A model generated the notes under the pieces. It saw nothing but the letters and a program-made list of their open reading frames with translations. It was not told the origin of the DNA and did no database searches. The position numbers were made by a program, and so were the translations under genes. From contig NZ_CP007055.1 of the NCBI RefSeq assembly GCF_000517625.1, forward strand, positions 1,426,001-1,490,000: a stretch of DNA of 64,000 bases, given 5' to 3'. Source of the DNA: Halostagnicola larsenii XH-48 (GTDB lineage Archaea > Halobacteriota > Halobacteria > Halobacteriales > Natrialbaceae). How positions within the stretch are numbered: position 1 is the first letter of the stretch; each line of letters starts with the position of its first letter. Of the stretch, positions 51,265 to 53,810 are shown piece after piece.

Positions 51265-51744
51265 CCTGAGTACCGACTCAGATCGACCGGTTTTCGGCGT
51301 TCGGTTCCAACGCGGCTTCGCAGTATCCGTTTTCGCGGCGATTTCAGGCAGTCTCCTCGACTGACCAGTATCAGAAGTCCGGGTTCGGTAGTCGGGACCG
51401 GTCGTGGGATTCGCGGTACGTACAGATCAAGTAGGTATCAGACCGATGGTCGTTTTCTCCGGTAACTGTCAAGAACCGCCTACTGAGTACAGAGGGGATC
51501 TTTCTCACGGCATCTTCTTGCTTTTCTACCTGCTACGCTACCGTCAACTGTCGTGCAGAGATACGAGCTGAATTGAGCCTATTCATAAACCAACAGACAC
51601 ATTAAATAATAAATAAGAGCCTGCTGAAGCCGCGTGTGACACACGAACGTATTTCGATCTGAAACAGTTGCATGGGGAGAAATTTCACTGTTGCTACAGC
51701 TACTGATTCAATAATAATGGTGCTTAGTTTTGTTGCTGACTCGT
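51265..51744. other. AT-richer intergenic stretch, 480 bp
   Basis: After the metE2 hairpin I see no gene. From 51580 it is AT-rich (TTAAATAATAAATAAG at 51602-51617), with the 13-bp palindrome CGTGTG-A-CACACG at 51633-51645; this is the probable promoter and control region of the beta-propeller gene. Confidence 0.55.
51266..51281 (+). terminator. Inverted repeat after metE2
   Basis: CTGAGT-ACCG-ACTCAG begins 2 nt after the stop codon of metE2, followed by a weak T-run (TTTTCGG at 51291-51297). The location suggests 3'-end formation. Confidence 0.4.
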
Positions 51745-53527
51745 ATGACAACACGGAATCGACGATCCATGCTTGCAACCTGTGCGGCGCTTTCGTCGGC
51801 CGGTGTGCTCGCGTCGATTGGTTCGCCGGCCGCGAAAGGGTCGACGGGTTCGACGAATGTGACGTCGCGATCGGACGTGATCGGTGATTCAGAGGGATGG
51901 TCCTCCGCCCGCGGCAACGCCGCGAACTCGCGTTACCTCCCGTTTGAGGGCGAGTTCCCGAAACCGGACACCGAAGCGTGGCAGTACGAACTTCCGGATT
52001 CGGAGGACGTTGAGGCCGCCGTCAAGGCCGGTTGGGTGGCTGTCGTCGATGGCGCAGTCTACATCCGAACGGACGGCGAAATCCACGCGCTCGACGCCGT
52101 CGACGGCGAACTCGAGTGGAAGACCGATGTCGGTGCGACCGGCACCCCTGCGGTGTTCGACGGGACGGTCTACGTTACGGGTGACCGTCACCTCGCGGCG
52201 CTCGACGCCACAGACGGGTCGCTCAGATGGGAGAGAGTTCGAAACCGACGAGTCGCTCGCGGATCTGAATATCGCACACGAGACGATTTATCTCGTCGTC
52301 GACAGCGTGCTCTACGCGCTTGAGCCCGCGGACGGGTCGACTCGATGGACGGTCGAGACCGTAGACGTGCGAGCCGAGGATCCGCACTACGAGTCCGAGG
52401 AGCTGGTGCCATCTCCGTTCCGCCCGGAGACGGTCGCCGTCGCGAACGGAACTGTCTACGCCGCACTCGAGGGTGCGACGTTCATCGACGAGCGCGACGG
52501 AGAACAGTACGAGTCCACGTTCACTTGCGGGTTCGGCGCGGTCGACGCTGAGACCGGCGACAGAGAGTGGGGAGTTGCGTTCACACCCGATCACGCAGGC
52601 GGCGATACCACAGCTCCGATCACCGCAAATGAAGCGTTCGTAAACGTAAATCTGACCGGAGGGGATGGCAATTTCAGACTCAGTACAGCAGCTGGGAGCG
52701 GCGACTATCGCGAGCGCTCGGTGAGAGCTGGAACGGAAACGACATTCGTCCAGAACCATTGGGACATGGACGGCCTGCTCACCGTTCGCGATCACGAAAA
52801 CGGTAATCACTGGAGCGTCAGGAGCGGTGTTCACGCGTGGATGGCGCCGATCGTCATCGGCAACACACTGATCACTGATCACTTCGATACGGTTCCGGAT
52901 CACGTAGAAGCCGACTATCCGGAGAGGTCGTTCGTCGCGTTCGACATCGCCGACGGCAGCGAACGGTGGGTCCTCGACTTCGACGAGGAATTTCCCAACA
53001 GTGAGTACGGTCGCCCAATCGCCGCCGACAAAACCACGCTCTACATCCCGAGCGCCGAAGGGCTCGTCGCGCTTCGAGCCTCCGACAGCGGACCACGCGA
53101 GGATGAGTCGGACAACGAAGACGACGAGGAAAATACCGAGGATAACAACGAGAACGACGATGAGGGCGAGCTGGACAACGAGGACGGCGGCGAAGACGGA
53201 AAAGATGACGACGACAGATCCGATTGCGAATGTGAAGCGAAAGACGGCGATAGCGAAGACGCCGGTTCCGACGGTCTCAGCGCTGACGAGAAAGACGCTG
53301 GAAACGAGAGCAATAGAGAAGACAGGGACGACGGTAGCGGTGACGGCTCGAACGCCGTGGACGATGAGAGCAACTCGAATAACGTCTCGAGCGAAGTGAG
53401 CGAGGACGACGAGATGCCTGGCTTCACAGGCGGCGCTGGTCTCCTCGGCGGTGCGGCAACCCTCGAGTGGCTGCGCCGGAAAGCCGGGACCGATAACTCA
53501 ATCGGCGTGGACGAATCAGCCGAATAA
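51745..53527 (+). pseudogene. Exported beta-propeller protein with PGF-CTERM-like tail, frameshifted
   Basis: The first frame (51745-52323) encodes a Tat-type signal (RNRRSMLATCAALSSAGVLA) and PQQ-type propeller blades (GAVYIRTDGEIHALDAVDGE, GTVYVTGDRHLAALDATDGS). Around 52231-52237 (GAGAGAG) the match shifts by +1: the second frame carries on with FETDESLADLNIAHETIYLV, VLYALEPADGSTRW and more blades to 53527. A 2-bp loss in the GA run (or one extra A) explains it. After the blades comes an Asp/Glu/Asn linker of about 120 residues, then MPGFTGGAGLLGGAATLEWL and RRK, like a PGF-CTERM sorting signal, but with 14 extra residues. Intact, it would have about 593 residues. Either a pseudogene, a phase-variable gene or a sequencing error. 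Confidence 0.8.
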
Positions 53528-53810
53528 TACTATCGTTTGACTTGCCCACCGGCTCGTACTACATTTGCGCCCTGTATTCAGTACTCCGTGAATATCACTC
53601 GTGTCTGATAGAACGAATCGGGATGGAACGCAGAGATTCAGGACGAAAAGGAGAGATCGTATTTTCGACGCCTCCTTTCGCTAACTCTTCCTGTGATGGG
53701 TTGTCTCCAGTTCCCGCGGCATTCGGTACCGCTATCCGACGACACGACCGTTACCTGGTAACCGGGCCGTCCAAAAACACCCACATACGTGGGGTTCGAA
53801 CACCGATGCG

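Follow-up and report, generated by a model that had tools for sequence, protein, structure and literature searches.

Introduction

Antonov et al. (2013, PMC3711429) assign clusters of frameshifted genes to phase variation only when they combine several frameshifted relatives with a tandem repeat, and attribute singletons to a recent indel or an error in sequencing. Gene cassettes of the integron type, with attC sites, have been reported in archaeal MAGs (PMC9668308). Here, we compare with these and other described systems a frameshifted beta-propeller gene and its surroundings in a 64,000-nucleotide stretch of the Halostagnicola larsenii XH-48 genome, hereafter called the window. The frameshift had been noticed in a first-pass annotation made from the sequence alone. 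We find that it is the inverted-repeat context of the gene, more than the frameshift itself, that matters at this locus and is its most interesting lead.

Results

One propeller gene is split between two frames

The gene lies on the + strand in two parts. The 5' part (51745..52323), in frame 1, starts with an ATG at 51745 and encodes a Tat-type signal, the first ~2 blades and, past the join, ~28 out-of-frame residues that end at a TGA (52321-52323). The 3' part (52238..53527, +), in frame 2, encodes the remaining blades, an Asp/Glu-rich linker and a conserved tail, with a TAA ending at 53527. The frame changes in the run GAGAGAG (52231..52237, +), which is 2 nt below the 9-nt spacer of homologues. 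The closest homologue found in a genome search, L049 from genome G131, is an intact protein of 571 residues with 63% identity over its full length; the 5' part is 74% identical to it across residues 1-164 and the 3' part 66% identical over 288 aa. Scans of genome contigs for a close orthologue of the propeller gene returned nothing useful, and the neighbourhood of L049 has no clear common gene order beyond the propeller gene itself. Accordingly, L049 is handled here as the closest homologue and not as a syntenic orthologue.

The first-pass annotation had described two halves of one propeller in different frames, joined at GAGAGAG, and both the open reading frames and the homologue alignments agree: the two parts align consecutively and in order to single intact homologues. 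The Tat signal is also there, as a twin-arginine start (MTTRNRRSMLATCAALSS...) visible at the frame 1 N-terminus. Past the join, 1.29 kb of frame 2 contains no second stop and no indel. The frameshift in the given sequence is confirmed as real and ordinary. That the 3' part could be an independent gene with an internal translation start is compatible with the in-frame GTG and ATG codons present downstream. However, such a gene would have neither the Tat signal nor the first blades, and the close full-length homologues are all single genes, and we hold this reading to be extremely improbable.

PF13360 (PQQ_2) recognises both parts, the 5' part with 54.6 bits and the 3' part with 31.8 bits, each exceeding the Pfam cut-off of 27.6 bits. 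Members of this family in haloarchaea are annotated as 'PQQ-binding-like beta-propeller repeat protein'. An AlphaFold model of intact L049 (mean pLDDT 85.5, pTM 0.88) has BamB structures as its best matches (E 2.6e-18, TM 0.62-0.71), and the join maps behind approximately residue 112 of 398 in this model. The family match, the fold of the intact homologue and the signal together show that this accessory gene encodes a surface protein, a beta-propeller of the BamB/PQQ-like kind that is exported by the Tat route.

The join is two nucleotides short

The join in L049 reads TGG-GAG-CGG-GAG-TTC (W-E-R-E-F). In 41 of 44 aligned homologues three residues (9 nt) separate the Trp from a Phe, Leu, Val or Ile. 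The window has 7 nt at this position and is therefore a net 2 nt short, as the earlier annotation had deduced. Its suggestion of a fresh mutation or read error likewise draws support from the spacer comparison, in the form of a 2-nt loss or a misread of that size.

The run itself may be a product of the loss rather than its cause, since an ancestral GAG-CGA-GAG minus two bases reads GAGAGAG, and the Arg codon at the join is CGN in the closest relatives. An AGA ancestor followed by a slip is a possible alternative route, because AGA or AGG serves at 9 of the 30 Arg codons of the gene compared to 6.5% in neighbouring genes. This codon usage across 51745-53527 would also fit an acquired or weakly selected gene. 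In the window as a whole GAGAGAG occurs 5 times, compared to 16.8 expected from shuffles, and dinucleotide runs of 7-8 nt number 31 in the 64 kb.

The first-pass annotation had further proposed that a slip-prone run in a surface protein can cause phase variation, in this case slipped-strand mispairing in the GA run that would toggle the protein on and off across cells. The gene does encode a surface protein, and its frame changes inside a dinucleotide run whose unit size equals the 2-nt deficit. However, the run comprises merely 3.5 units (7 nt), and none of the 44 homologues has a GA run of at least 7 nt at the join. Furthermore, Tandem Repeats Finder detected no other tandem repeat within 600 nt of the join. 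Some homologues are broken as well, one in several frames (L050), one in the acidic linker (L127) and one by two frame changes (L131), and all of these lesions lie at other places than the window join and outside GA runs. With a run of 7 nt, no tandem repeat nearby and relatives that are broken elsewhere, phase variation by slippage is unsupported, and we judge it very improbable. In the classification by Antonov et al. (PMC3711429), the window gene falls among the singletons that have no tandem repeat. L124 and L126 are further damaged or residual members of the propeller family, and their lesions, too, differ in position.

Programmed ribosomal frameshifting (-2 or +1) at GAG-AGA-GTT would offer another way to a full protein: neighbouring genes seldom use AGA for Arg (2.6%), and tRNAs could re-pair on the repeat. 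But the site is not conserved and, as the homologues are uninterrupted and have no need for a frameshift, this explanation is without support; we give it almost no credence.

Either a recent break or an assembly error

Relative to L049, dN/dS is 0.28 before the join and 0.49 after it, a 3' excess that may reflect a property of the family and not decay. In relative-rate counts with several outgroups, the window branch was approximately even with L049 in both parts, and on the basis of this symmetry we rejected relaxed selection after the frameshift. Because there is no further lesion and no detectable relaxed evolution, the break is either recent or an assembly error, and the lack of relaxed evolution is equally expected from the latter.

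An assembly or base-calling error would mean that the true gene is intact and encodes one protein of ~590 residues. Consistent with this possibility, the remainder of the gene is unbroken and evolving as if constrained, and apparent frameshifts in two relatives turned out to be assembly gaps: L129 (near 2399) and L130 (near 832 and 1911) show, at the positions of the shifts, a single N whose flanks are duplicated, and both were dropped as frameshifted relatives. By contrast, the window contains no N, and among ~45 homologues common to the window and the same-genus genome G001 there was no genuine frameshift, the one pair flagged in this comparison being an antisense ORF. Errors of exactly 2 nt that do not fall in a homopolymer are also less usual than 1-nt errors, which counts against this explanation. 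Weighing both sides, we regard an assembly error as unlikely, although it is an alternative to be taken seriously.

If the 2-nt loss at 52231-52237 instead occurred recently in the window genome, translation would yield ~164 native residues, comprising the Tat signal and roughly two of eight blades, followed by ~28 foreign residues. The later blades, the linker and the tail would be left untranslated in frame. Such a truncated product is most likely non-functional and the gene a young pseudogene in a fast-turnover family.

A conserved tail outside the PGF-CTERM model

The 3' part ends in a conserved C-terminal motif, MPGFTGGAGLLGGAATLEWLRRKA (53414..53485, +), of the PGFTxGxG...LEWLRR family. 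The pattern PGFTxGxGxxGGxxxLEWLRR occurs in 91 of 125 family genomes, with up to 11 copies per genome, and nearly all tail-bearing frames examined belonged to these propellers; one was a short relic (L126/L121). The first-pass annotation had called the tail PGF-CTERM-like, with a PGF, a helix and RRK. The PGF and RRK are present, but RRK is not terminal, being followed by 14 residues, and the tail has no match to TIGR04126 at E <= 10. The helix is weakly hydrophobic: the stretch has a mean hydrophobicity of 0.80, compared to 1.2-2.35 in TIGR04126 matches, and holds Glu and Trp. TIGR04126 finds 7 tails above its cut-off elsewhere in the window genome, which also encodes archaeosortase A (TIGR04125, 317.7 bits against a cut-off of 75). 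The PGFT...LEWLRR tail goes unrecognised by both Pfam and TIGR04126. Judged from its sequence, it is a PGF-CTERM-like candidate and lies outside the PGF-CTERM family as that model defines it.

The gene is accessory and bracketed by inverted repeats

The stretch between metE and a nitroreductase gene (51265..53719) has no blastn homology to the same-genus genomes G001, G003 and G004. In these three genomes metE and the nitroreductase gene are spaced 226-640 bp apart and the propeller gene is absent, indicating that it is accessory in the lineage. By eye, the same gap in G001 and G004 (L089 and L090) contains a remnant that resembles an antitoxin of the AbrB type together with a degraded partner, and for this reason the spot appears variable within the genus.

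Two blocks around the gene are common to other propeller loci. The upstream block (51472..51572, +) is 75% identical to the corresponding region of intact L049 and, being common to both, appears to travel with the gene. The second block (53507..53581, +), which spans the gene end and downstream sequence, is 75-77% identical to the propeller loci L053 and L124. Outside the coding region, these shared blocks contain an inverted repeat. Its left site, of A type, lies at 51457..51517 (+; nhmmer E 5e-4 in 271 kb) and its right site, of B type and in opposite orientation, at 53553..53597 (-; nhmmer E 9e-6). The sequence CTGARTACAG has exactly two copies in the 64 kb, at 51483-51492 and 53572-53581 in opposite orientations, compared to 0.03 expected. 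Neither the window pair nor the other pairs read contained a transposase, and the same-genus comparison gave no precise empty site. The bracketing repeats and the same-genus genomes without the gene suggest that it probably came to the metE-nitroreductase interval inside a cassette with inverted-repeat ends.

The repeat is widespread and ordered in haloarchaea

A profile of the repeat, built from 25 sites, was used to search 271 kb of selected haloarchaeal stretches. It identified 55 sites there and no site once the sequences were reversed. Because these stretches had been picked for containing sites, their site density should not be read as a genome-wide mean; the order of orientations is independent of that choice. 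There were 20 +/- pairs spaced 449-3780 bp apart, and the 12 -/+ pairs included nine with sites no more than 28 bp apart. Exactly one CDS lay within 9 of the 12 annotated +/- pairs, encoding an ArsR protein, a PAS protein, hypothetical proteins and others. In five stretches (L176, L177, L178, L183 and L185) the sites bracket unrelated single genes, often in back-to-back arrays.

Across the class, sites were present in 129 of 145 sampled haloarchaeal genomes, with up to 45 per genome. In two Natronococcus genomes there were 20-24 sites, compared to 0-1 per genome for the control pattern read backwards. Sites were found on 71-82 plasmid records from many haloarchaeal genera, and on chromosomes also. 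The repeat could be drawn as a hairpin in which 82% of cells pair, a proportion no higher than in shuffles. Covariation of the hairpin was rejected on these grounds, and the palindrome may be conserved merely as sequence.

Of 11 plasmid stretches, 4 have tyrosine recombinase genes close to sites. These small recombinase/integrase genes (L177 27909-28583, L178 14045-14632, L179 28634-29191 and L182 4390-4758) lie within ~3 kb of sites, one of them ~70 bp away, and may be cargo themselves. Among 11 junctions inspected for attC boxes, GTTRRRY and RYYYAAC each turned up once, in isolation, and never as a pair. Lacking these boxes at nearly all inspected junctions, the sites were rejected as integron attC. 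Freely searchable papers contained no account of the repeat or of such haloarchaeal cassettes, which may carry another name in ISfinder or in subscription papers, both outside that search.

The repeat sites resemble the boundaries of mobile cassettes. We tentatively propose, as a possibility to which we give somewhat less than even weight, a haloarchaea-wide cassette system in which single unrelated genes lie within inverted ~30-nt sites (core GTGCTGAATACAGRGNRYGNATNCAGCAC), often arrayed, and are moved or inverted by some enzyme, possibly a tyrosine recombinase.

Discussion

Our preferred reading, which we consider probable, is that an accessory propeller gene, likely brought in as an inverted-repeat cassette, was recently inactivated by a 2-nt loss. 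The frameshift would then be one more young pseudogene or, failing that, an assembly error, and should not be taken as a case of archaeal phase variation. More broadly, a large family of Tat-exported propellers in the Natrialbaceae, with a tail that the sorting-signal model misses, appears to have spread at least in part as inverted-repeat cassettes. The cassette system, if true, would explain the spread, multiplication and decay of the propeller genes, including the frameshifted copy. If the repeats are true ends of mobile cassettes, most haloarchaea have a gene-capture system that is directly testable.

The locus shares features with several known systems. Like surface genes that vary in phase through simple sequence repeats (SSRs), it encodes a surface protein whose reading frame is broken at a short repeat; unlike in those genes, the repeat is short and not conserved among homologues. 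The protein belongs to the same sequence family as the BamB-like propellers, and the model of its homologue L049 has the same fold. BamB, however, is a bacterial outer-membrane lipoprotein, whereas the window protein has a Tat-type signal, an acidic linker and an LEWLRR tail, and is frameshifted. PGF-CTERM substrates likewise carry a C-terminal PGF, a short non-polar stretch and basic residues, and ArtA is encoded in the window genome, but the window tail differs in its missing TIGR04126 match, its low hydrophobicity and the 14 residues past RRK. As in non-autonomous transposons with terminal inverted repeats, the window gene sits inside inverted ends without a transposase; the repeat-bounded cassettes differ from such elements in that each contains another single cargo gene. 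Finally, the haloarchaeal sites differ from those of integron cassettes in being without box pairs and in having genes in both directions, and yet the arrays have the same overall layout, with diverse single genes divided by palindromic intergenic sites.
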